Origin: Desulfamplus sp.
GTDB taxonomy: Bacteria > Desulfobacterota > Desulfobacteria > Desulfobacterales > Desulfobacteraceae
Length of the DNA: 64,000 nucleotides
Direction of reading: 5' to 3'
Assembly (NCBI GenBank): GCA_015231615.1
Contig: JADGBE010000007.1
Span: forward strand, 24,711-88,710
Shown here: positions 21,445 through 36,319 of the stretch, piece after piece
Numbering within the stretch: the stretch's first letter is position 1
Layout of the letters: every line of letters starts with the position of its first letter
Translations under genes and position numbers: made by a program
Notes under the pieces: generated by a model
What the model saw: only the letters and a program-made list of their open reading frames with translations
What the model was told of the DNA's origin: nothing
Database searches by the model: none

Positions 21445-22413
21445 TCAAACCACAGGTCTTGGCAGCACTTTTGCCCGCTCTGCAATTTCTGGCACCATGT
21501 GTTCCCACTCAATAGCCATTAAATGCACACCAGCAACCCCCTTCATCTCTTTAAACTCCTCAATCTGTTCAAGGGCAAATTTAATTCCCTCTTCTGCCTG
21601 TTTCCCTTTTTCAGCTCCTTTTAGCCTGTTTATTAAAGATTCAGGCACATCCATACCCGGCACATTTTTGCCCATAAAAGATGCCATTCTTGCACTCTTC
21701 ATTGGAGTTACACCAGCAAGAATATAGCATTTTTCATGCAACCCCATATCAACAACCTGTTTCATAAATGTTCTGAATTTATCCATGTTGTAGATGCACT
21801 GGGTTTGGATAAAATCTGCTCCTGCTGCAATCTTGTTGGCAAGCCTGTAAACCCTGTATTCAAAAGGATCTGCAAACGGATTACAAGCCGCCCCAACAAA
21901 AAGTTTCGGGGCAACATCAATCTTTTCACCATTTAAAAATTCTTCCTTGTCCCGCATGGTGGTTACAAGGTTTATAAGCTGCATGGAGTCAATATCATGG
22001 ACATTTTTGGCTTCTGGGTGGTTTCCAAAAGATTGATGATCTCCAGAAAGGCATAACATGTTGCGGATACCTAAAGCATAAGCCCCGAGAATATCGCTTG
22101 TTATTGCAAGACGGTTTCTATCACGGCAGACCATCTGGAAATTTGGCTCAAGTCCATGATCAATCATCAAGTGTGATGCAGCAAGGCTTGACATTCTTAC
22201 CACTGCGGTCTGGTTATCGGTCATGTTGACAGCATCAACATTTCCTTTTAAATGCTGGAATTTTTCCACAAGATGGGCAACATTAGCCCCTTTTGGTGGT
22301 CCGCACTCTCCTGTAAATGCAAAATGTCCAGCTTTTAAGACTTTTTCAAGATTGCTTCCAGACTTAAAATTGTTGTCTGATTTGATATTATTTTCTGAGT
22401 TGGTTTCACTCAT
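21445..22413 (-). CDS. metF: Methylenetetrahydrofolate reductase MetF
   Basis: MetF reduces methylene-tetrahydrofolate to methyl-tetrahydrofolate in the methyl branch of the Wood-Ljungdahl pathway. The catalytic glutamate region FTGECGPPKG, the VDAVNMTDNQ strand, MVCRDRNRLAI, LCLSGDH and IQTQCIYNMDKF fit the flavin barrel. The first 20 residues are an Asn/Ser-rich tail. It is the last gene of an operon after metV, as in the Moorella-type MetVF complex. AAGGAG stands before the ATG. A diverged paralogue lies at the other end of the cluster (29848-30726). Confidence 0.92.
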   Translation of the reverse strand: MSETNSENNIKSDNNFKSGSNLEKVLKAGHFAFTGECGPPKGANVAHLVEKFQHLKGNVDAVNMTDNQTAVVRMSSLAASHLMIDHGLEPNFQMVCRDRNRLAITSDILGAYALGIRNMLCLSGDHQSFGNHPEAKNVHDIDSMQLINLVTTMRDKEEFLNGEKIDVAPKLFVGAACNPFADPFEYRVYRLANKIAAGADFIQTQCIYNMDKFRTFMKQVVDMGLHEKCYILAGVTPMKSARMASFMGKNVPGMDVPESLINRLKGAEKGKQAEEGIKFALEQIEEFKEMKGVAGVHLMAIEWEHMVPEIAERAKVLPRPVV

Positions 22414-22448: not shown

Positions 22449-23117
22449 TCATTTGGTTAGCTCTTCTCTAATGCTTCTTCTTGGTCCGCCGTCTCTTGCT
22501 GTTCTCCAATCTTTTACAGGTCTGACTTTAAGAAGGTCATTCAGTCTGCCTTGTTCCATCTTTTTGGATACAATAGAGTCCCATATACAGATGGTCTCTT
22601 TTGTGATTTCGCATTTACCTTTTGATGATCCTCCGCATGGTCCATGAAGAAGGCTTTTAGCACAACGGGCAACTGGGCATAGTCCGTCAAAATCGTGGAT
22701 AATACATGTTCCGCAACCTGCACAACGCTCTTCCCAAATTCCATGCGAAACAGCTCCTCCAAAAAAGGTTGTATTGACTGCTGGATAGAATTTCTGTTCT
22801 TTGTATGCTTCAGATAAAAATTGAGGTCCAACTCCACAAGCCATTGAGACCACAGCTTCATAGCTGCCAACACTATCTTTTATTTGAGCCACATATTCAT
22901 TGTCGCACTGACGTTCAATTACTTTGGTCTCAATGGTTATCTCATTTTCCTCTTTCTGTCTTGCAATTCTCAAGGCAGAGGCAAGAATCTCAACCTCTTT
23001 GACGCCTCCTACATTGCAGACTGTAACACAGCCCTTACAACCCAAAATAAGTATGTTTTTGTAATCTTTGACCATGCTTAATATTTCTTCAAGAGATTTC
23101 CGATCTGCTACTATCAT
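22449..23117 (-). CDS. metV: MetV, zinc/iron-sulfur partner of MetF
   Basis: MetV is the small subunit that carries electrons to MetF. It starts with a CGxxxC-type stretch (ILGCKGCVTVCNVGG) and has a second cysteine-rich part with ERCAGCGTCI and GLCPVARCAKSLLHGPCGGSSKGKCE, the MetV C-terminal signature. The 222-residue length is typical. It stands between mvhD and metF, matching the hdrCBA-mvhD-metV-metF order of acetogens. A composite repeat separates it from mvhD, so the two could be differentially expressed. Confidence 0.9.
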   Translation of the reverse strand: MIVADRKSLEEILSMVKDYKNILILGCKGCVTVCNVGGVKEVEILASALRIARQKEENEITIETKVIERQCDNEYVAQIKDSVGSYEAVVSMACGVGPQFLSEAYKEQKFYPAVNTTFFGGAVSHGIWEERCAGCGTCIIHDFDGLCPVARCAKSLLHGPCGGSSKGKCEITKETICIWDSIVSKKMEQGRLNDLLKVRPVKDWRTARDGGPRRSIREELTK

Positions 23118-23297: not shown

Positions 23298-23729
23298 TTA
23301 TTGATCAGCCGCTTTTTTCTTTTTTACAGGTGTCGGTCCAAGAGCTTTTATTTTTTCGTCCATTTCGCGGGCAATCTCTGCAAACCTTAGCCCCATTGCA
23401 GATGAGAGGTTGAACATCTCAACCCTTTCAGGTTCAATACCAATCTCCTGCAAAACCTTTTTCACATAGTTCACTTTCTTTCTGGTCTTTATATTTCCTG
23501 TCAAATAGTGGCACTCACCCTCAAGGCAGCCTGCCACATATACACCGTCTGCCCCGTTTTCAATGGCATTCAACAGATGCAAAATATCCACTCTGCCAGT
23601 GCATGGCACCTGAATCACCTTTATATTTGAAGGGTAGGAAAGCCTCATGGAACCTGCCAGGTCCCCAGCCGCATAAGCTCAATATTGACAGCAAAAGGCG
23701 ATAATCATTGGTTCAAAAGAGGTCGTCAT
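23298..23729 (-). CDS. mvhD: MvhD, hydrogenase/Hdr iron-sulfur subunit, predicted selenoprotein
   Basis: MvhD is a [2Fe-2S] protein that passes electrons to HdrA. The ATG at 23729, with GGAGG nine bases before, opens MTTSFEPMIIAFCCQY, then UGA at 23679-23681, then AYAAGDLAGSMRLSYPSNIKVIQVP. The family motif here is CCxxC followed by [AS]Y, so UGA replaces the third cluster cysteine. A hairpin with loop TGGCA follows 13 bases after the UGA (23649-23665). The rest shows VPCTGRVD, GADGVYVAGCLEGECHY and the GIEPERVEMFNLS end. The full product is 143 residues including selenocysteine. A start at 23648 would lose the cluster-binding end. Confidence 0.85.
23649..23665 (-). promoter_or_regulatory. 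Candidate SECIS hairpin in mvhD
   Basis: Just after the in-frame UGA, GGGACC pairs with GGTTCC (one G-U) around loop TGGCA. The loop GG lies 21-22 bases after the UGA, within the range for bacterial SECIS elements. It resembles the hairpin in hdrCB, whose loop is TGGAA. Confidence 0.65.
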
Positions 23730-23793: not shown

Positions 23794-26700
23794 TCATGCA
23801 GCATTAAACAAGGCATCAGTTTTTGCCATTATCTGGTCATCGGTAAAATGGTTGAGCTTTATTGCCTTGCCCGGACACTCTGATACGCAAAGACCGCATC
23901 CATGACACTCACTTGCATCAATCACGGCATAGCCGTCCTGATGAATATATGGAATTTCGTAAGGACAGGTTCTAACACAGGTAAGACAGACCGCGCACTT
24001 TTCAGCTTCAACAACAGCAACAACTCCTCCGACCATTATTGAATCGCGAGAGACAATTCTCATTGCCCTTGATGCTGATGCCTTTGCTTGGGCAATACAC
24101 TCTTCAAGAGGTTTGGGATAGTGGGCAAGACCCGCCACAAAAAGACCGTCCGAAGCAAAATCAACGGGTCTTAGCTTTGCATGAGCCTCCACAAGAAAGC
24201 CTTCTGCATTTACAGGAATCTTAAAAGCCTCAAACAGATGTTTATTTGCATTTGGCACAATACCTGATGCAAGGACAAGAATATCAGGATTTATCTTTAC
24301 CGGCATTCTTAAAACATGGTCAATGACCGTAATTTCAAGATTGCCGTATCTATCTTTGTCATAGCTGTAAGTGTCGCCTTCTGTTCCTTGCGGCATTACA
24401 GCCTTGACTTGCGGCAGATTCTCAAGGTCATACCTGATAAAGATAATACCTTTTTGGCGTGCTTCTTGATAGAGGTCTTCTCTAAATCCATAGGAGCGGA
24501 TATCGCGATAGAGGATATAAACTCTTGCCCCGGGTCTTCTGTTTTTCACCTCAATTGCACTCTTAAGGCTGTGGGTGCAGCAGATTTTACTGCAATAGGG
24601 TTTGTCGCTGTTTCTTGATCCTACGCATTGTATAAACGCAATTGTCTTTGCCTTTGAAACTCTTTTATCTGCGTGTTCAAGAACATCATCCATCTCTAAA
24701 TGTGTTAATACATTGGGGTGTTCTCCATAGAGATATTGAGTTGGTTTATCCTCTTTTCCACCTGTTGCAATTATTGAGGCACCATGCTCAATGGTTGTGA
24801 GTGTTGAAGATGACAAAGTTGTGATGAAATTTCCAAGACTTCCTGTGGTAGTTTTCACCTCTGTATTAAGATGAAGCTCAATATTTGGATTTCTACTAAC
24901 CCTTGTAACCAGCTCATTAAGCCACGGTTGGATAGTCTCACCTTGCCACGTTGCTCTCAAGTGTTTTGCATTGCCTCCAAGCTCTTCACCCTTCTCCACA
25001 AGAATTGCCTTAAAACCCTGTTCAGCAACGCTTAAAGCTGCCTCCATGCCTGACACTCCGCCGCCTATTACAAGAACTGATTTTTTAATGGCAAGTTTTA
25101 CCTGATGGAGAGGCTCAACATGGGCAGCTTTTGCAACAGCCATACGAACAAGCTCTTTTGCCTTTTGGGTTGCTTTTTCTGGGCTGTTCATGTGAACCCA
25201 AGTATTTTGATCCCTTATATTTGCCATTTCAAAGAGATATTTATTAAGCCCTGCTTCTCTTATTGTCTCCTGAAATAGAGGTTCATGGGTTCTTGGAGAG
25301 CAAGAAGCCACAACCACTCGGTTTATATCCTTTCCAACTATAACCTTTTTTATGTGATCCTGAGAATCTTGCGAACAGGTAAAAAGATTATCCTCAACAT
25401 GAACTACATAAGGCAAGGTGGCGGCATAGTCCCGAACTGCTGGAACATCTGCAACTCCACCGATATTTATTCCACAGTTGCAGACAAAGACTCCAATACG
25501 AGGTGACATACCAGAAAAATCTCGCTCTGGCGGTAGTTCTTTTGTTCTGGTTAAGCTCCACCTTGCACCTGCAAGTGTTTGGGCAGCCATAGCTGCCGCA
25601 GCAGATGCCTCCATAACTGACATTGGAATATCTTTTGGCTCTTGGAATGCTCCGCAGACATAAACTCCATCTCTTGTTGTGCTTACAGGAGAGAGATTGG
25701 AGGTTTTTGCAAATTGATGGCGATTAAGTTCAATTCCCATAGTTTTGGCAAGTTCAACTGCGTCAGAACATGGTGCAAGACCTATTGAAAGCACAACCAT
25801 ATCAAAAATCTCTTCAGCGGTTGAGCCAGATTCTGTAGCATAAACAAGACGCAATCTGTCATCTTTCATGGGAAAGATTGAGTGAATTCTTGATCGGACA
25901 AATCTTACACCGCTCTCATCTTCTGCCCGTATATTGTATTTATCAAACTCCTTTCCATGGGTTCTCATATCCATAAAAAAGATGGCAGTATCTAAATCAT
26001 TATCGCTATGCTCTTTTGCAATAACTGCCTGTTTGTTGGCATACATGCAGCAGACACCTGAGCAGTAGCTGTGTCCGCCCCTGTTTATATCTCTTGAGCC
26101 TACACATTGCAGCCATGCTATTTTTTTGGGTTCTGTCTCATCTGATGGTCTAACAAGATGCCCTCTATATGGACCTGACGCAGATAGCAGACGCTCAAAT
26201 TCAATACTTGTAACAATATTGGGGTTAGAACCATACCCGTAAGTCTCATACACAGAAGGGTTAAATGGTGTAAATCCCGGAGAGAGAATTACTGCCCCGA
26301 CTTCAATTTCGTGAGTTTTACGAGTCATTGAGTGGTCAACAGCATTGGCAAGACAGGCATCAACACAAGCCATACATTCAGAACAATATCCGCAATTCAG
26401 ACAACGATCCGCCTCTTTTTGCCCTTCCTGCTCATCAAGCCCAAGCTCAACCTCATTGAAATTACCTTGTCTTTGATCTAAGTGAATTTCCCGAACTTTT
26501 GCCCGCTCGGCTTTGGGGATATTTTCGGAGATGGGTGTATAGTCAGATGTTTTATAAGAGAGATTATCAGAAGTTTTCTCCTCTATTGCAGCAATTCTGT
26601 CTCCCCTGCCAAGGGTCATATCTTCACCCTTTAGATACCTTGCAATAGATTCGGCAGCTTCCATGCCAGCAGCAATTGCAGAAATGGCAACCCCGGGACC

Positions 26701-28458
26701 AGTTTGGAGATCACCGCCTGCAAAAACTCCCTTTCTACCTGTTTCAAAGGTGGTTGAGTTCACATCAACAGTTGCCCATTTTGTGATTTTGATCTCACCA
26801 CTCTCTTTGGTTTTATCCCCTCTCTTGCTGCTTTGGTCAACTGTGCTGTTTTGTTCAGCAGCATAAAGTTCCTTAATTCCAGAGACATCGGGCTGCTGAC
26901 CGATTGCACAGATGAGTTGGTCAATCTCGATATCGTATTCGCTTCCAGGAATAGGAATTGGTCGCCGTCTTCCAGAAGAGTCAGGTTCACCCAGCTCCAT
27001 TTTTATACAACGAACTGCTGATAATTTACCCTTCTGTGTTCCTGAACCATCAATACTTGTTCCAATTGCCTGTTGAGGTGCTGACAGATAGATTATCTCA
27101 ACTCCTTCATGTTCAGCTGCGAAAATTTCCTCTTCCCATGCCGGCATCTCTTTGCGTGTTCTGCGATAGATTATAGTTACTTTTTCAGCCCCAAGACGCA
27201 CAGCACTTCTTGCGACATCAATTGCCACATTACCGCCGCCGATAATTGCAACTCTTTTTCCTGTTTTTGTGTTGCCTGTAAGATTTAACTCTCTTAGATA
27301 ATCAACACCTTGTCTAACTCCTTCAAGGTGATCACCTGGGATCGCAATATCAATACCCTTGTGTGCCCCCATGCCGAGAAAAATAGCATCAAAGCCATCT
27401 GCAAGCAGGGAGTCAATTGTCATGCACTCCCTCTGTTTATTGCTCTCGTTTTGTTTATTATATTTTTCAGATTCACTGTTCGTAAGCGATTTGTTGATTC
27501 CAAGGGGACTATTTAACTTTATCTCAACGCCAAGGTTAGTGATAACTTCAATATCACGGTCAAGAACTTCAGGAGGGAGGCGATGGTCAGGAATTCCAAC
27601 TCGAAGCATTCCACCAGCTTTGGGTAAGGCTTCAAATATGGTTGATTTTATTCCCTTTTTGGCAAGATGATATGCAGCAGAGAGTCCCGCAGGACCTGAA
27701 CCTATTATAGCAACTTTTTTTCCAGTTAAAGGCTCGCACTTAATCTCAATTTGCCTTGCATCAAATTTATCTGCTGCAAGACGTTTTAGGTCTCTTATTG
27801 CAATTGGCTGATCAACTTCACGTCTGCGGCAGCCGTTTTCGCACTCATGCGGACAAATTCGTCCTAAAACTCCAGGTAGAGGCAACTGCTCCATTATAAT
27901 CTCAAGAGCCTCTTTATATTTGCCTTTTTTAACCATCTGGACATAGCCCTGAACATTTAATCCAGCAGGGCAGGTGAGTTTACAGGGGGGCCGGTCGCCT
28001 TTTTCAATTGTATATGCACTCGGCATTGCTTGGGGATAAAGTTTAAATGCAGCTTTACGATCTCCTAAACCTTCATCAAATTGATTTGGTAGTTCAACAG
28101 GGCATACACTTGAACACTCTCCGCAGGCTGTGCATTTTTCAGTATCTATGAATCTTGGCTCTTCAAGAAGTTTTACTTTAAAATTGCCAGCAGTGCCGCT
28201 AACTTCTTGAACACGGGTTTTATTTAAAAGTTCAATGTTGAGGTGTCTTCCTGCTTCCACAAGTTTTGGAGAGATAATGCACATGGAGCAGTCATTAGTT
28301 GGAAAAGTCTTGTCAAGTTTTGCCATTACACCGCCAATTGCGGAGTTAGTATCAGCAAGATAGACAAGATAACCTGAGTCTGCAAGGTCAAGAGATGCTT
28401 GAATCCCAGCAATACCAGCACCAACAACCAGCACAGAACCATTATTTTGTTGGGTCAT
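23794..28458 (-). CDS. hdrA: HdrA-like subunit with inserted GltD-type NAD(P)H domain
   Basis: HdrA is the FAD protein of heterodisulfide-reductase-type electron-bifurcating complexes. At 1554 residues this one is about two to three times a plain HdrA. It begins VLVVGAGIAGIQASL with NDCSMCIISPKL, then a 4Fe-4S motif CTACGECSSVCP. A GltD-like module follows (about 155-640) with ICPHECENGCRR, the nucleotide site AIIGSGPAGLSAA and a second site AIIGGGNVAIDVA. Next come CGYCSECMACVDAC and more HdrA sequence with VFVCNCG, SCSPRTHE and VLVIGGGVSGMEAAL. Two final ferredoxin motifs are CAVCLTCVRTCP and CHGCGLCVSECP. The start overlaps hdrCB (ATGA) after GGAGG. Confidence 0.9.
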   Translation of the reverse strand: MTQQNNGSVLVVGAGIAGIQASLDLADSGYLVYLADTNSAIGGVMAKLDKTFPTNDCSMCIISPKLVEAGRHLNIELLNKTRVQEVSGTAGNFKVKLLEEPRFIDTEKCTACGECSSVCPVELPNQFDEGLGDRKAAFKLYPQAMPSAYTIEKGDRPPCKLTCPAGLNVQGYVQMVKKGKYKEALEIIMEQLPLPGVLGRICPHECENGCRRREVDQPIAIRDLKRLAADKFDARQIEIKCEPLTGKKVAIIGSGPAGLSAAYHLAKKGIKSTIFEALPKAGGMLRVGIPDHRLPPEVLDRDIEVITNLGVEIKLNSPLGINKSLTNSESEKYNKQNESNKQRECMTIDSLLADGFDAIFLGMGAHKGIDIAIPGDHLEGVRQGVDYLRELNLTGNTKTGKRVAIIGGGNVAIDVARSAVRLGAEKVTIIYRRTRKEMPAWEEEIFAAEHEGVEIIYLSAPQQAIGTSIDGSGTQKGKLSAVRCIKMELGEPDSSGRRRPIPIPGSEYDIEIDQLICAIGQQPDVSGIKELYAAEQNSTVDQSSKRGDKTKESGEIKITKWATVDVNSTTFETGRKGVFAGGDLQTGPGVAISAIAAGMEAAESIARYLKGEDMTLGRGDRIAAIEEKTSDNLSYKTSDYTPISENIPKAERAKVREIHLDQRQGNFNEVELGLDEQEGQKEADRCLNCGYCSECMACVDACLANAVDHSMTRKTHEIEVGAVILSPGFTPFNPSVYETYGYGSNPNIVTSIEFERLLSASGPYRGHLVRPSDETEPKKIAWLQCVGSRDINRGGHSYCSGVCCMYANKQAVIAKEHSDNDLDTAIFFMDMRTHGKEFDKYNIRAEDESGVRFVRSRIHSIFPMKDDRLRLVYATESGSTAEEIFDMVVLSIGLAPCSDAVELAKTMGIELNRHQFAKTSNLSPVSTTRDGVYVCGAFQEPKDIPMSVMEASAAAAMAAQTLAGARWSLTRTKELPPERDFSGMSPRIGVFVCNCGINIGGVADVPAVRDYAATLPYVVHVEDNLFTCSQDSQDHIKKVIVGKDINRVVVASCSPRTHEPLFQETIREAGLNKYLFEMANIRDQNTWVHMNSPEKATQKAKELVRMAVAKAAHVEPLHQVKLAIKKSVLVIGGGVSGMEAALSVAEQGFKAILVEKGEELGGNAKHLRATWQGETIQPWLNELVTRVSRNPNIELHLNTEVKTTTGSLGNFITTLSSSTLTTIEHGASIIATGGKEDKPTQYLYGEHPNVLTHLEMDDVLEHADKRVSKAKTIAFIQCVGSRNSDKPYCSKICCTHSLKSAIEVKNRRPGARVYILYRDIRSYGFREDLYQEARQKGIIFIRYDLENLPQVKAVMPQGTEGDTYSYDKDRYGNLEITVIDHVLRMPVKINPDILVLASGIVPNANKHLFEAFKIPVNAEGFLVEAHAKLRPVDFASDGLFVAGLAHYPKPLEECIAQAKASASRAMRIVSRDSIMVGGVVAVVEAEKCAVCLTCVRTCPYEIPYIHQDGYAVIDASECHGCGLCVSECPGKAIKLNHFTDDQIMAKTDALFNAA

Positions 28459-29762
28459 TGGATACCTCCTTCAATATCTAAACCAAATTCAGCAAGATCA
28501 GGTCCAAGATAAGTTCGTTCGTTTTCGCCAAGAATGCCCATTGCAAGACAGATTACAGTCCATAGATGCAGAGTGTGATAATCACCGCCGTAATGGTGGC
28601 ACATATCTTCAATCTGGGCGTGGCAGTTGTGGCACGGAGTTATCACATATTTAGCACCTGTCTCGATGATCTGGTCAAATTTTACCTTTCCATAGGCTCT
28701 TCTCTGTTCGGTATGACCTCCTTGCAAGGCACCGCCACCACCGCCGCAGCAGAAATTATTTGATCTGTTGGGAACCATATCAATGAAGTTCTCTTCTCCA
28801 ACTACAGCTTTAACCACAAATCGTAAATCATCAACAATCTTGTTAGTGCCAATTTTTCTGCCAATATTACACGGGTCTTGAACCGTAAATTTTATCTTTA
28901 AATCCTTGTTCCAGTCTGAATTGACCTTTAGTGTGCCATCTTTAATCCACTGGGCATATAGTTCGATTATGCTTTTAAATTCAAATGTGTGCGGGATTTT
29001 ATATTTTTTCAATCCTTCCAGGATTGAGAAGTATGAGTGTCCTCACTCGGTGTTGACTACAACCTTACATTTGAGATTTTGTTCAATGTGGTAAACAAAC
29101 TCCTCCATGATGTATCGCCAGCCCTCTTCGTCAGCCAGAAACATGCAGTAGTTTTCTCCGCCCCACATGACCGTGGGGTGTGTCCAGTCTGCCTTTACCT
29201 TGTGAAGAATTTTCCATAACGGACCAAGTTCATCAGGTTCTGTTACAGGCTCCCGGGAATTTTGGTTCAAAGCCATATATGCACCAACTCTGTCAGCCGT
29301 AATCTCAAGATCGCTGAATTCTGGCTGGGTTTCCCTGATTTCCCTTGCCACATCTTCAATGGTGAACACAAAATCCTCTTTGGGCACCCCCATTGCATTG
29401 CCTGATTTGATGTGTTGATCGCATGAACCTCTGATGCCTTTAGGTCTTTTATCTCTGTCCCAGCTTGCCCGGACATTGTAAACAAATTTGGGTATATTGA
29501 TTTTCATAGGACATGCTGACATACACCTTCCGCACATAGTGCAGACCCATGTCCAAGGGTTTTTTCTAATTTCGTCATCCATGCCAAGTAGCAGCATCCG
29601 AAGGAATTTCCTTGGATCCATGTCATACTGCTCAGATGCAGGGCATCCGCCTGTGCATGTTCCGCAGGTGAGACAGAGATCAAAATTTGCCTCTGGTATG
29701 CGGTTTGCTACCTCATCTTTAAAATCGCATGCAAACTCTTTAAGTTTAATTGCTTCTGCCAT
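28455..29762 (-). CDS. Fused HdrC-HdrB (HdrD-like) subunit, predicted selenoprotein
   Basis: The HdrC part (about 1-180) binds two 4Fe-4S clusters: CLTCGTCTGGCP and CTMCGRCMSACP. The HdrB part carries the CCG-type non-cubane cluster motif: DPCN, then CCGGGGG, then PCHNCH. In between, UGA at 29043-29045 (codon 240) interrupts VVVNTE-U-GHSYF, where related CCG proteins have a cysteine in ECGH. Without readthrough the gene looks like two fragments with no start site for the second. Readthrough gives one 435-residue protein. A hairpin with GG in the loop follows the UGA. GAGGAGG precedes the ATG, and the stop overlaps hdrA. Confidence 0.85.
29009..29027 (-). promoter_or_regulatory. Candidate SECIS hairpin in hdrCB
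   Basis: Fifteen bases after the UGA, the perfect seven-base stem TCAATCC/GGATTGA closes the loop TGGAA. The loop GG lies 24-25 bases past the UGA. Size, position and loop agree with bacterial SECIS rules and with the mvhD hairpin. Confidence 0.7.
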
Positions 29763-29847
29763 ACTACGTTCCTCCTCACCATCTGTAGAAACGAGATTTT
29801 CACATTGAAACAGTTATATGGAACAAAAAAATAGCTGTTTTTTATGT

Positions 29848-30726
29848 TTATCTCAGCTTTGCCGCATTAAGATAATCTGCAAGTTTATCCTCTCCACCAA
29901 TTGTAATAATGTGAACCCCTTGGCAAATATCTTTGAGGCTGTTTACTGTATTTGCAAAAAGTTCAATGCTTGCCTTCATTTTATCGGGTGCTTTTAAAAG
30001 TTTTTGGATAGCCCACTCAGGCACAAGCCCTGATTTAAAGTGGCGATTCAAAAATTTGCCCATTCCGCCAGTTCTGAGAATCATAACTTCTGCAATGACA
30101 GGAACATTAAAGGTATTTGCCTGTTTCATAAATTTTGCAAATTGATCAACATCAAAAATAGGGGTTGTAAGAAAGTAGCCAGTTCCAATATTCATCATAT
30201 CTTCCATCTCTTCCATGCCTTTCTTAGGTATATTTTTACCCCATGGAGCTTCAACACCTGAACCAAGGACAAACTCAATCTTCTTGTCCATTGCATTGCC
30301 ATCTATTGTCTGCCCCTGACGCATGTGTTCAAGCACTGACGCAAGTTTCCCAGAATCAACATGAAAGAACATAGACTCCTGAAGACTATCTCCTGAAATC
30401 CTGTAATCTTCTGTAAAAACAAGAAGATTCTCTACACCTGTCTCATGTGCAAGGGTTAAATCTTTGTGGAGCTGAAAACGGTTTTTGTCACGGGTTGTTG
30501 TTTGGTAGATCGCATTAAAACGATTTTTTCGCAGAATATCGCAGGTTTGAATTGAATCTCCGACAACTCCCTCAAGCTCAACGTCAGAAACAGCCACTCC
30601 ATCTATTCTGCCTCTTACTTTATTCAAACTATTTATAATCTCTTCAGGGTTATCCTCTCCAAGCGGAGCCTGTATCTCCGATGTTACAACAAATTTCTTT
30701 TTTTCCAGGGATTCTTTTAGGTTCAT
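29848..30726 (-). CDS. MetF-like methylenetetrahydrofolate reductase paralogue
   Basis: A second, diverged MetF-type flavin barrel of 292 residues opens the operon. It shows the catalytic glutamate strand FVVTSEIQAPLGEDN, VDGVAVSDVEL-like sequence, TRDKNRFQLHKDL (matching the CRDRNR strand), a YFLTTPIFDVDQF strand equivalent to IQTQ..F, and VPVIAEVMILRTGG. The typical substrate motif NMTDN is changed to SDVELE. It may reduce another folate or be an inactive structural subunit of the Hdr complex. AAGGAGG sits at ideal distance before the ATG. Confidence 0.75.
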   Translation of the reverse strand: MNLKESLEKKKFVVTSEIQAPLGEDNPEEIINSLNKVRGRIDGVAVSDVELEGVVGDSIQTCDILRKNRFNAIYQTTTRDKNRFQLHKDLTLAHETGVENLLVFTEDYRISGDSLQESMFFHVDSGKLASVLEHMRQGQTIDGNAMDKKIEFVLGSGVEAPWGKNIPKKGMEEMEDMMNIGTGYFLTTPIFDVDQFAKFMKQANTFNVPVIAEVMILRTGGMGKFLNRHFKSGLVPEWAIQKLLKAPDKMKASIELFANTVNSLKDICQGVHIITIGGEDKLADYLNAAKLR

Positions 30727-33230: not shown

Positions 33231-34319
33231 ATGAATATTAATTTATCACATAAAATAGAGCTGAATCCGAATAATAAACAATCAAACTTTTTAGCAAGAG
33301 CCTGCGGAGTAAGCAGATTTACTTATAATTGGGGACTTGCAGAATGGAAGAAACAATATGAATCTGGATTAAAACCAACAGGTTTTGGACTTAAAAAAGA
33401 ATTTAATGCCGTCAAAAAAGATTTATTCCCATGGATTATGGAATCTCCAAGAGATGCAAACAGCCAGTCTTTTGCTGATTTACAGACAGCGTTCAATAAC
33501 TTTTTTAAAGGTAGATCAGGGTATCCAGTATTTAAGAAAAAGGGTTGTAATGACAGTTTTTATATTGCAAATGACCAATTTAAAATTGATTGTAAAAAAA
33601 TCAGAATCCCAAAAATCGGCTGGATTCGTTTAAAAGAGAGTTTGAATCTGTCAGGTAAAATTTTGTCAGCATCAGTATCAAGAAGTGCTGATAAATGGTT
33701 TGTGTCAATAAGTTTATCAATGGAAATCACGCCTGTTAAAATCGAAAACCAAGATATTATAGGCGTAGATTTAGGAATCAAACATTTAGCAGCAGTATCT
33801 AATGGAGAAAAAATAGAAGGAAGCAGAGCATTAAAAAGAATGGAGAAAAAGTTAAAACGCCTCCAGCAGTCATTTTCTAAAACTCAAAAAGGTTCAAAAA
33901 ACAGGGAAAAGCAGAAGCGTAAAATATCTCGTCTGCATTATAGAATCAGGTGTATCCGTTTAGATTTGATCAACAAATTAACGACAAAGCTGTCCAAAAA
34001 TCATAGTGTAATCGTGATTGAAGATTTGAATGTAAAAGGCATGATGGCAAATCATAAATTAGCAAAAGCAATTTCAGATATGGGATTTTATGAATTTAAA
34101 AGGCAGATGGAATATAAATCTAAGATATTTGGTTCACATATAATTATTGCGGATAGATGGTTTCCATCTTCAAAAAGATGTTCAATCTGCGGGAATATTA
34201 ATAAAGACCTGACGCTTTCTGACAGAATCTTTAAATGTCCTTCTTGTTCTTCAACGATAGACAGAGATTTAAATGCAGCCATAAATTTAAGCCAATATCA
34301 GCAGTTAATGGCAGCTTAA
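33231..34319 (+). CDS. tnpB: TnpB, RNA-guided nuclease of IS200/IS605-type elements
   Basis: TnpB is the RuvC-fold RNA-guided DNA nuclease ancestral to Cas12. All catalytic pieces are present: RuvC-I DLGIKHLA (Asp about 184), RuvC-II VIEDLNVKGM (Glu about 264), a zinc ribbon CSICGN..CPSC (about 320-341) and RuvC-III DRDLNAA. The N-terminal RNA-binding region starts KIELNPNNKQSNFLARACG. The 362-residue length is normal and the frame is intact. No tnpA lies nearby, so the element is solitary. It separates a kinase from two GcvH-like genes in what may once have been a continuous cluster. Confidence 0.93.
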   Translation: MNINLSHKIELNPNNKQSNFLARACGVSRFTYNWGLAEWKKQYESGLKPTGFGLKKEFNAVKKDLFPWIMESPRDANSQSFADLQTAFNNFFKGRSGYPVFKKKGCNDSFYIANDQFKIDCKKIRIPKIGWIRLKESLNLSGKILSASVSRSADKWFVSISLSMEITPVKIENQDIIGVDLGIKHLAAVSNGEKIEGSRALKRMEKKLKRLQQSFSKTQKGSKNREKQKRKISRLHYRIRCIRLDLINKLTTKLSKNHSVIVIEDLNVKGMMANHKLAKAISDMGFYEFKRQMEYKSKIFGSHIIIADRWFPSSKRCSICGNINKDLTLSDRIFKCPSCSSTIDRDLNAAINLSQYQQLMAA

Positions 34320-34512: not shown

Positions 34513-35478
34513 ATGAGAACACAAAGAGAAGAGACCACAGCACAGGCAGTAGAAAACAGATATAACTCCACAACATTGGGAAACCAAGTATGGAAACTCA
34601 AACAAGAAAAATCAGATAAAGAAGATCAACAGGTAAAACCATGTATCTGGATGGCATCAGGAGCAGTAGCTAAAAAGAGCTGCAACAACTTTTTTGACTG
34701 CACATCATGCAAATATGATGCAGCTATGGAGCAAAAGGTTGCAGATGGTAAACAGATAAGCTGGCAAGATAGCATGAGAAGAAGGGAGAGCATGGAGAGA
34801 CTCTGCCGACACAGCATGACCATGCGAATGGTACCACGCGTATGTGCCTATAATTACAACTGCTCATCATGCGATTTTGATCAGTATCTTGAAGATGTGC
34901 TATCTCACAGAACAAAACATGCTGCATTTGCTATTGATAATGTCAAAGGCTTTAATGTGCCACAGGGCTATTATTTTCACAGCGGTCATACTTGGGCTGT
35001 TATTGAGAACGGAGGTCATATCAAGGTTGGTCTTGATGATTTTGCCCTTAAACTCTTAGGTAAGGCTGATGCTCTTGATATGCCGATGATAGGGGTGGAA
35101 CTCAACCGTAATATGCCGGGCTGGGGATTAAAAAGAAGAGATAATTTAGCTGATGTACTATCGCCAGTGGACGGGGTCATTGTTCAGGTGAACGAGAAAG
35201 CAAGAAGAAACCCAGGCGTTGCCAACAGCGACCCTTATGGAGACGGCTGGCTTTTCAGTGTTCATAATTCCGATATAAAAGGCACACTTAAAGCTCTTAT
35301 GGATCACGATGAGAGCATGGCATGGACAGGAGAAGAGGTCAACCGTCTTGAAGAGATGATTGAATCAGTGGCAGGTCCAATGGCAACTGATGGTGGAATT
35401 CTGCTACCCGACATATACGGTAATCTTCCCGGACTTGACTGGAAACAACTTACCCGTCTCTTTCTTAAAAACAGTTAA
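34513..35478 (+). CDS. GcvH-like protein without lipoyl lysine, duplicated Cys4 motif
   Basis: The C-terminal half matches the glycine-cleavage H-protein fold: YYFHSGHTWAVIENGGHIKVGLDDFA, LSPVDGVIVQVNE and NSDPYGDGWLF. The ESVKA loop that carries lipoate is replaced (KRRDNLADV), with Asp where the lysine belongs. The N-terminal half holds two identical cysteine patterns, C-x12-C-x5-C-x2-C (C44/57/63/66 and C98/111/117/120), each followed by x-[FY]-D, likely zinc or iron sites. A C-terminal part ends with DGGILLPDIYGNLPGLDW. GAGGGGGG precedes the ATG. It pairs with the next gene. The role is unknown; a scaffold or sensory role is likelier than glycine cleavage. Confidence 0.75.
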   Translation: MRTQREETTAQAVENRYNSTTLGNQVWKLKQEKSDKEDQQVKPCIWMASGAVAKKSCNNFFDCTSCKYDAAMEQKVADGKQISWQDSMRRRESMERLCRHSMTMRMVPRVCAYNYNCSSCDFDQYLEDVLSHRTKHAAFAIDNVKGFNVPQGYYFHSGHTWAVIENGGHIKVGLDDFALKLLGKADALDMPMIGVELNRNMPGWGLKRRDNLADVLSPVDGVIVQVNEKARRNPGVANSDPYGDGWLFSVHNSDIKGTLKALMDHDESMAWTGEEVNRLEEMIESVAGPMATDGGILLPDIYGNLPGLDWKQLTRLFLKNS

Positions 35479-35578: not shown

Positions 35579-36319
35579 ATGAAATATAAAATCCAAATGC
35601 AGGATAAATTCCTAACCAACACACTTTGTGCTAAAAAGCCCTGCATTCATCATCTAAAAGGTCAGATTGAATATAGGATATGCGATCAAGAGTATCGATG
35701 TTCAAGTTGTGAATTTGATCAATATTTTCAGGATCAGTTCAGAGTGCATACTGTTATGAAACCTGTTAATTACCACACCATTGATGGTATCTCTTTTCCT
35801 GAAGGCTACTATTTAGCAACAGGGCACACTTGGGTTAAACTTGAAGATGATCAGGAGGTCAGGGTTGGGGTAGATGATTTCGCATTGCATCTTTTTGGAA
35901 CGCCTGATCAAATTGAACTTCCCTTTATAGGGACAAAAGCTGTAAAGGGAAGCCCCTTGATAAATATCTCAAGAGGAGAAAACAAGGCTTCTATTTTATC
36001 ACCAGTCAACGGAGTTGTAACAGCAGTTAATCAAGATATGATAAAAGAGAAGGGGGCAGCTAATCTGAATCCATACTGCAAAGGGTGGATGGTTATGGTG
36101 CATTGCGACAATTTACGGAAGGATATGAAGAGCTTACTATTCATGGAAGAGAGTCGTGCCTATATGCAGCGGCATATTAATACTCTTTATGAAATATTGG
36201 AGGAGGAGACGGGTTTGATGGCGGCTGACGGAGGAACATTAGGAGAAGATATTTACGGTAATGCACCTGGTCTTAAATGGGATAAGCTTGTGGGATATTT
36301 TCTGGAAAATAAAAGATAA
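35579..36319 (+). CDS. GcvH-like protein without lipoyl lysine, single Cys4 motif
   Basis: This is a shorter relative (246 residues) of the preceding product. It has one C-x12-C-x5-C-x2-C motif (C22/35/41/44) ending CSSCEFDQYFQD, almost the same words as its neighbour's second motif. The H-protein fold follows (YYLATGHTWVKLEDDQEVRVGVDDFA, LSPVNGVVTAVNQ, NLNPYCKGWMV), and the tail ADGGTLGEDIYGNAPGLKW is shared. The lipoyl position reads RGENKAS, with Glu aligned to the lysine, so lipoylation is not expected unless the lysine two residues later is used. The two genes arose by duplication. Confidence 0.75.
   Translation: MKYKIQMQDKFLTNTLCAKKPCIHHLKGQIEYRICDQEYRCSSCEFDQYFQDQFRVHTVMKPVNYHTIDGISFPEGYYLATGHTWVKLEDDQEVRVGVDDFALHLFGTPDQIELPFIGTKAVKGSPLINISRGENKASILSPVNGVVTAVNQDMIKEKGAANLNPYCKGWMVMVHCDNLRKDMKSLLFMEESRAYMQRHINTLYEILEEETGLMAADGGTLGEDIYGNAPGLKWDKLVGYFLENKR

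Follow-up and report, generated by a model that had tools for sequence, protein, structure and literature searches.

The hdrBC gene and its in-frame UGA

A 64,000-nucleotide stretch of a Desulfamplus sp. draft genome (GCA_015231615.1, contig JADGBE010000007.1, positions 24,711 to 88,710), here called the window, carries on its minus strand a gene, hdrBC (28455..29762), in which an HdrC part and an HdrB-like part are fused through a single UGA, as judged from the reading frame, the Pfam matches and the codons of homologues. We consider hdrBC very likely to encode a selenoprotein of the type called HdrD4 or GlpC in the literature, because TGA and cysteine codons replace each other at this place among homologues, a covarying hairpin follows the codon only in the genes with TGA, selA and selB are present in the genome, and two parts of the selenocysteine (Sec) machinery, tRNA-Sec and selD, are found in most relatives tested.

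The frame is open from the ATG at 29762 to the TGA at 29043..29045 and stays open beyond it, without a shift, as far as the stop at 28455-28457; this stop and the ATG of hdrA (28458) overlap. The preliminary description had proposed that these two abutting frames are one protein, and the open frame bears this out. With the TGA read as sense, the gene encodes 435 residues followed by the stop, and a Shine-Dalgarno-like GAGGAGG lies ahead of the ATG (29771..29777). An open reading frame (ORF) listing made with translation table 11 gives two separate frames instead, of which the second starts with a TTG at 29012. The HdrC part has two four-cysteine ferredoxin motifs (Pfam Fer4 dicluster domain, residues 28-88); the HdrB-like part comes next and has one CCG domain (residues 293-384). 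The TGA is codon 240, in the context NTE-U-GHSYF, and is likely to specify Sec. The gene thus has a UGH motif inside a CCG-type Fe-S protein and an in-frame UGA where homologues hold Cys, as do the UGH Fe-S oxidoreductase-like selenoproteins.

Codon 240 in homologues

Homologues were taken from named genome records. Among the best 80 of the 378 loci found, the codon aligned to the TGA is TGA in 62 (the Sec loci) and TGC or TGT in 18 (the Cys loci), with no other codon, which agrees with the earlier proposal that the UGA replaces the cysteine of an ECGH motif. A further 33 loci from the genome itself and from relatives gave 26 TGA (two of which are the same gene, while several repeat loci of the 80), 6 TGC and one locus that does not cover the codon; a set of 20 loci from five genomes has 14 with TGA and 6 with TGC or TGT. 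Carriers of the TGA include Desulfamplus magnetovallimortis, Desulfocicer vacuolatum DSM 3385 and Desulfatitalea alkaliphila M08but, and a Desulfotignum relative with 64% identity (P0016) is named 'oxidoreductase, selenocysteine-containing' in its source.

Compared with six near relatives (L019-L024), most codon differences are at third positions, before the TGA and after it alike; in the downstream half of the gene, L023 differs from the window at 16, 5 and 90 first, second and third positions. None of the 80 homologues ends at NTE as a separate HdrC. Nor does the downstream piece have a well-placed start, as had been noted at the outset: over the stretch from the TGA to the gene end, any given start codon is shared by at most 33 of the 62 TGA loci, except one at residue 329 (59/62), which lies past the cluster cysteine C298. 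Taken together, the codon swap, the third-position bias on both sides and the lack of a conserved second start are strong evidence that the gene is no pseudogene and the TGA no real stop.

The history of the codon was followed on a tree of 102 rows (the window, the 80 loci and 21 further loci; L099-L106 and L123-L125 were left out as the same genes as other rows or as cut short, and L134 as not covering codon 240). Two changes between Sec and Cys are needed on this tree, which has no root and so does not distinguish gain of Sec from loss. Across the phylum, 26 of 197 genomes gave a match at 1e-100, the scored candidates being limited to 8 in each. This listing was not used for counting Sec genes, because its count of inside stops can include the terminal stop; L142 (the same as L046), for example, is credited with '1 TGA' yet has TGC at codon 240.

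More distantly, L153 (34% identity), in a metagenome-assembled genome (MAG) named Desulforapulum autotrophicum, has TGA at the UGH position, the codon before GGCCACGC, with a hairpin-like stretch behind it as judged by eye.

A hairpin behind the UGA

A hairpin with a 7-bp stem and a 5-base loop, TCAATCC-TGGAA-GGATTGA, lies 15 bases past the TGA (29009..29027 on the minus strand, read from 29027 to 29009). It had been put forward as a bacterial selenocysteine insertion sequence (SECIS) element; it is present, and its pairing is conserved among the TGA genes. For the 55-nt RNA that starts at the TGA the folding energy is -12.5 kcal/mol; shuffled sequences give -6.0 +/- 2.0 (z -3.2, 2 of 200 as good). 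In the same test the Cys gene L056 gave z -1.6 and a different fold.

In a gap-free alignment of 63 TGA sequences over 60 bases, the stem pairs in 92.1% of cells, and 38 cells have changes on both sides; pair 22-34, for instance, is G-C in 39 sequences and A-U in 23. Stem pairing, the number of cells changed on both sides and the covariation score were matched by 0 of 500 shuffles. Sliding the stem partners lowered pairing to 9-39%, and in the same columns of the 18 Cys sequences 57.9% of cells pair, which is the shuffled level. A covarying hairpin thus lies directly past the UGA, as in a bacterial SECIS element. Covariation that preserves the stem where the codon is TGA, but not where it is Cys, is what one expects of such an element.

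The selenocysteine machinery

The presence of the Sec machinery, named in the preliminary description as a check, was found in part. The genome (G000) is a draft of 3.86 Mb in 200 contigs, 89.8% complete. It has selA (593.7 bits, cut-off 267.9) and selB (367.2 bits, cut-off 242.25), whereas model searches of this draft gave no match for selD and none over the cut-off for tRNA-Sec (selC). Seven matches to the tRNA-Sec model proved to be ordinary tRNAs (Trp, Tyr, Ser, Arg, Ser, Leu and His).

Most relatives searched have tRNA-Sec and selD. tRNA-Sec exceeds the cut-off in 37 of the 40 genomes holding loci L019-L060; it does not in G011, G013 and G017, and G036 barely reaches it (47.0 bits), but all four have selD. 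selD itself exceeds the cut-off, each time with an in-frame TGA, in 14 of 16 genomes searched; these were hand-picked from 41 (the genome itself and the 40) and include all four without strong tRNA-Sec. The genome itself and G004 are the two with no selD over the cut-off. When the 4,094-base neighbourhood of tRNA-Sec in G002, a genome of the same genus, was compared with the draft, three short matches (65, 54 and 39 bases) were obtained among 40 of 96 candidates scored, two of them on a repeat dispersed in G001 and one elsewhere. G001 and G005 match the same neighbourhood in part, the tRNA gene included. Since the neighbourhood gives only short matches in the draft, an assembly gap is the simplest and likely reading of the missing tRNA-Sec. 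With 40 candidates scored per genome, this repeat of about 50 bases near tRNA-Sec matches G001 dozens of times and G000 twice.

An operon-like gene run with a second in-frame UGA

On the minus strand hdrBC stands in an operon-like order: a gene like methylenetetrahydrofolate reductase (MTHFR), hdrBC, an hdrA-type flavoprotein gene, mvhD, metV and metF. The MTHFR-like gene just upstream of hdrBC (29848..30726), assigned by profile matches, is a second and more distant one; by tblastn it is matched in 29/62 Sec and 0/18 Cys loci, where cross hits from metF are possible. The hdrA-type gene (23794..28458), also assigned by profile matches, encodes 1554 aa, includes a GltD-like part that binds NAD(P), and has no in-frame TGA. 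Domain matches identify metV (DUF5981, MTHFR C-terminal; 22449..23117) and metF (21445..22413).

The remaining gene, mvhD (23298..23729), was assigned to the MvhD/FrhD/FlpD subunit by a profile match and by reading of the frame, and is, after hdrBC, another gene of this operon whose frame runs on through a UGA. Its ORF by table 11 starts too late and lacks the first 20 profile positions; the in-frame sequence upstream reads MTTSFEPMIIAFCCQY-TGA-AYAAGD. From the sequence and its relatives, this TGA (23679..23681, FCCQY-U-AYAAGD) likely specifies Sec: the same TGA is found in 4 of the six nearest loci, the other two not covering the place, and MvhD/FrhD is a selenoprotein family of long standing in the parts of the literature consulted (PMC2702500, PMC13188914, PMC1794560). 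A candidate SECIS hairpin behind it (GGGACCU-GGC-AGGUUCC, 23649..23665) folds no better than shuffles (z 0.95).

Gene content differs between the Sec and Cys loci. In a tblastn search of flanks reaching up to 6 kb, metV, metF or the MTHFR-like gene was found in 38/62 Sec loci and 0/18 Cys loci, and in 21/28 against 0/14 when only loci of at least 13,000 bases are counted; the two MTHFR-like genes may have given cross hits. Of the 30 Sec loci whose MvhD was scored, 21 have TGA in it, against 0 of 13 Cys loci, L085 being left out as not clearly MvhD (31% match). Both associations are confounded by shared ancestry, which the Fisher values ignore. Conversely, genes belonging to two further clusters, c8 (no Pfam match at 1e-5) and c9 (a 4Fe-4S dicluster protein), occur at 9/18 Cys loci and 0/62 Sec loci.

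Two further loci lie in the same genome. One (C161:11870-13189; L132, L125) is a second copy of the operon, in the order metF-like, hdrBC, hdrA, mvhD, metV, metF, at 85-97% protein identity; its hdrBC is 92% identical and has the TGA, and its metF is cut by the contig end. This copy either arose by recent duplication or comes from a second strain that was binned along with the first. The other (C142:9100-10344; L133) holds a paralogue of hdrBC that has Cys (63% identity) and is accompanied by genes like hdrA and mvhD; under selenium shortage it could replace the Sec form.

Active site and proposed mechanism

The second CCG motif of the HdrB part (C-CC-CxxC) is complete, with C298, C338, C339, C377 and C380 in 102/102 of the rows also used for the tree. 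The first is not, and Pfam finds one CCG domain only; a methanogen-type HdrB with two complete CCG motifs was rejected accordingly. The protein compared is EtfD of Mycobacterium smegmatis (9ojn), which sits in the membrane and whose first CCG domain carries a linear [3Fe-4S] cluster. Aligned with it, Sec240 matches C581, a ligand place of the first noncubane cluster of HdrB. In contrast to EtfD, the other three of the four first-cluster ligand places are R/K158, W193 and S/V/E/I243, never Cys in any of the 102 rows, which suggests that the first noncubane cluster of HdrB is probably absent from the hdrBC product. H242, which adjoins the selenium position, matches the EtfD histidine that ligates the second noncubane cluster.

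That the operon encodes a Sec-containing HdrC-HdrB fusion with the role set out here is in our view highly probable; the detail of the active site, taken by itself, is tentative. The UGA would be decoded as Sec with the aid of the hairpin. The full-length HdrC-HdrB Fe-S protein made in this way is a predicted partner of HdrA, of MvhD and of the methylenetetrahydrofolate reductase MetVF, all encoded alongside. Together the products would form a complex like the HdrCBA-MvhD-MetVF proteins in acetogens. On the HdrC side, electrons would travel through two [4Fe-4S] clusters; from there they would reach a single noncubane [4Fe-4S] cluster bound by the five cysteines of the C-terminal CCG motif. Sec240, in one former ligand place of the first cluster, would be held beside the remaining cluster by H242 and may act as a reactive thiol-like group whose partner in electron exchange is a disulfide or a protein thiol, with the invariant C206 as a candidate resolving residue. 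Selenium would speed this exchange. A still bolder version, which we regard as somewhat unlikely, is a hybrid Hdr active site in which one noncubane cluster of HdrB has been replaced by a single Sec facing the remaining cluster, forming a Sec-dependent electron port of an MTHFR complex with two selenoprotein subunits.

Several observations weigh against this interpretation. The protein and its selenium are predictions from sequence, and selD and tRNA-Sec were not found in the draft, as described above. Two coarser measures of the five used for covariation were unremarkable in the TGA set (pairs changed on both sides, 58/500 shuffles as high; further pair types, 500/500), and the outermost pair of the hairpin (19-37) is unpaired in 33/63 sequences. 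Genes of the metV/metF type lie near only 38 of the 62 Sec loci, though many loci are cut short, and four Sec loci (L068, L072, L082 and L086) adjoin hydrogenase genes, mvhG-mvhA, instead. MetVF of Sporomusa ovata was purified without Hdr proteins, so that a tight complex is not assured. The alignment with EtfD is weak in sequence (27.5 bits with profile A5, 34.4 with A3), and the His-ligated cluster of EtfD is described as non-catalytic, so that Sec240 could be a cluster ligand and not a reactive group.

Alternative readings

The last point leads to the alternative that survives best, which departs from the proposed mechanism on the role of Sec240 only. Here Sec240 would bind the noncubane cluster, or what remains of the first cluster, as a structural ligand and would tune its potential. 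We give this possibility some weight, short of an even chance, since its counterpart C581 is a cluster ligand in EtfD. Against it stand the absence of cysteine from the other three ligand places and the general tendency of Sec residues, which are more often part of catalysis.

The other alternatives concern the UGA itself. If it were a true stop, a short HdrC-like protein would end at NTE and the HdrB piece would be made by downstream re-initiation, as the two ORFs of the table 11 listing would have it. The Cys homologues run through the codon without a break, and neither TAA nor TAG takes its place in the 80 loci. Of the 62 TGA loci, 22 have a start codon where the TTG lies (codon 251) and 11 have Shine-Dalgarno-like 4-mers ahead of the first start; the only widely kept start, at residue 329, would cost the protein C298. 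With unbroken Cys homologues and no conserved downstream start, we reject this reading as very improbable.

Insertion of another residue such as Trp, or plain readthrough without selenium, would suit the missing selD and tRNA-Sec. However, the codons that replace TGA in the 80 loci are those of Cys only, hdrBC itself and hdrA terminate in TGA, and the hairpin and the Sec machinery accompany the TGA in relatives; a Trp reading is rejected, and we hold this explanation to be slightly more improbable again. Least credible of all is a pseudogene or a sequencing or assembly error, which the draft state of the source might invite and which is contradicted by the recurrence of the same TGA across many records and named strains, with a conserved hairpin and coding-type evolution on both sides.

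Relation to known systems

As a selenoprotein, hdrBC is well supported and fairly ordinary, since proteins of this type are already in print; the claim of a new selenoprotein site made in the preliminary description is not supported. In the parts of these sources consulted, a 2006 survey reports five GlpC selenoproteins and an operon glpC-hdrA-frhD-frhG-frhA (PMC1794560), and HdrD4 of Desulfobacterium autotrophicum (2009) is soluble, has HdrC and HdrB domains, as does the hdrBC product, and is reported to contain Sec (PMC2702500). A 2026 review places an 'Fe-S oxidoreductase-like protein' with the motif UGH (PTHR43551) among high-confidence predicted selenoproteins, grouped with those of largely uncharacterised function (PMC13188914). 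An excerpt of a 2021 MAG paper likewise has an 'Fe-S oxidoreductase' among selenoproteins. The consulted portion of the Desulfococcus multivorans genome paper names five Sec genes, none of the HdrB type.

As these sources present them, the UGH and GlpC proteins share with hdrBC the Sec in UGH, their occurrence in Deltaproteobacteria and their place beside hdrA and frhD/mvhD. The published GlpC operon, with its hydrogenase genes, is resembled by the four Sec loci with mvhG-mvhA; the window differs from it in having metV-metF and the second MTHFR-like gene instead. 'GlpC' is a label only here, because the protein reaches 36.4 of 279.9 bits for GlpC of glycerol-3-phosphate dehydrogenase (TIGR03379), an assignment that was rejected. 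DsrK, HmcF and TmcB gave the highest NCBIfam scores (109.3/400, 168.5/750 and 167.2/735 bits, score over curated cut-off) and were rejected as far below cut-offs of 400-750 bits. The MAG named Desulforapulum autotrophicum has a TGA copy of 54-55% identity with a hairpin behind it (L148), a candidate for hdrD4 only.

With the Hdr-type MTHFR (HdrCBA-MvhD-MetVF) of Moorella and Sporomusa, the window shares the full gene set hdrBC, hdrA, mvhD, metV and metF, the complex being predicted here from its genes. It differs in that HdrC and HdrB are fused, that the HdrB part is without the first CCG cluster motif, and that HdrBC and MvhD are predicted selenoproteins. The S. ovata paper does not contain the word 'selenocysteine'. 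In the open-licence papers that we examined, represented in part by excerpts, neither the pairing of MetVF with a Sec-containing HdrBC nor the structural place of the selenium was found.

Outside the operon, on the plus strand, the window holds an IS605 OrfB/TnpB-type transposase gene with a Cas12f1-like TNB domain (33231-34319) and genes for two adjoining GcvH-like lipoyl-domain proteins with extra N-terminal parts (34513-35478 and 35579-36319).

Implications

Since table 11 splits hdrBC and shortens mvhD, energy-metabolism operons of this type in Desulfobacterota are easily mis-annotated. The comparison with EtfD offers a concrete and testable place for the selenium in a type of protein first listed in 2006. 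If the link with MetVF is real, the methyl branch of the Wood-Ljungdahl pathway in these bacteria would need selenium at two subunits.

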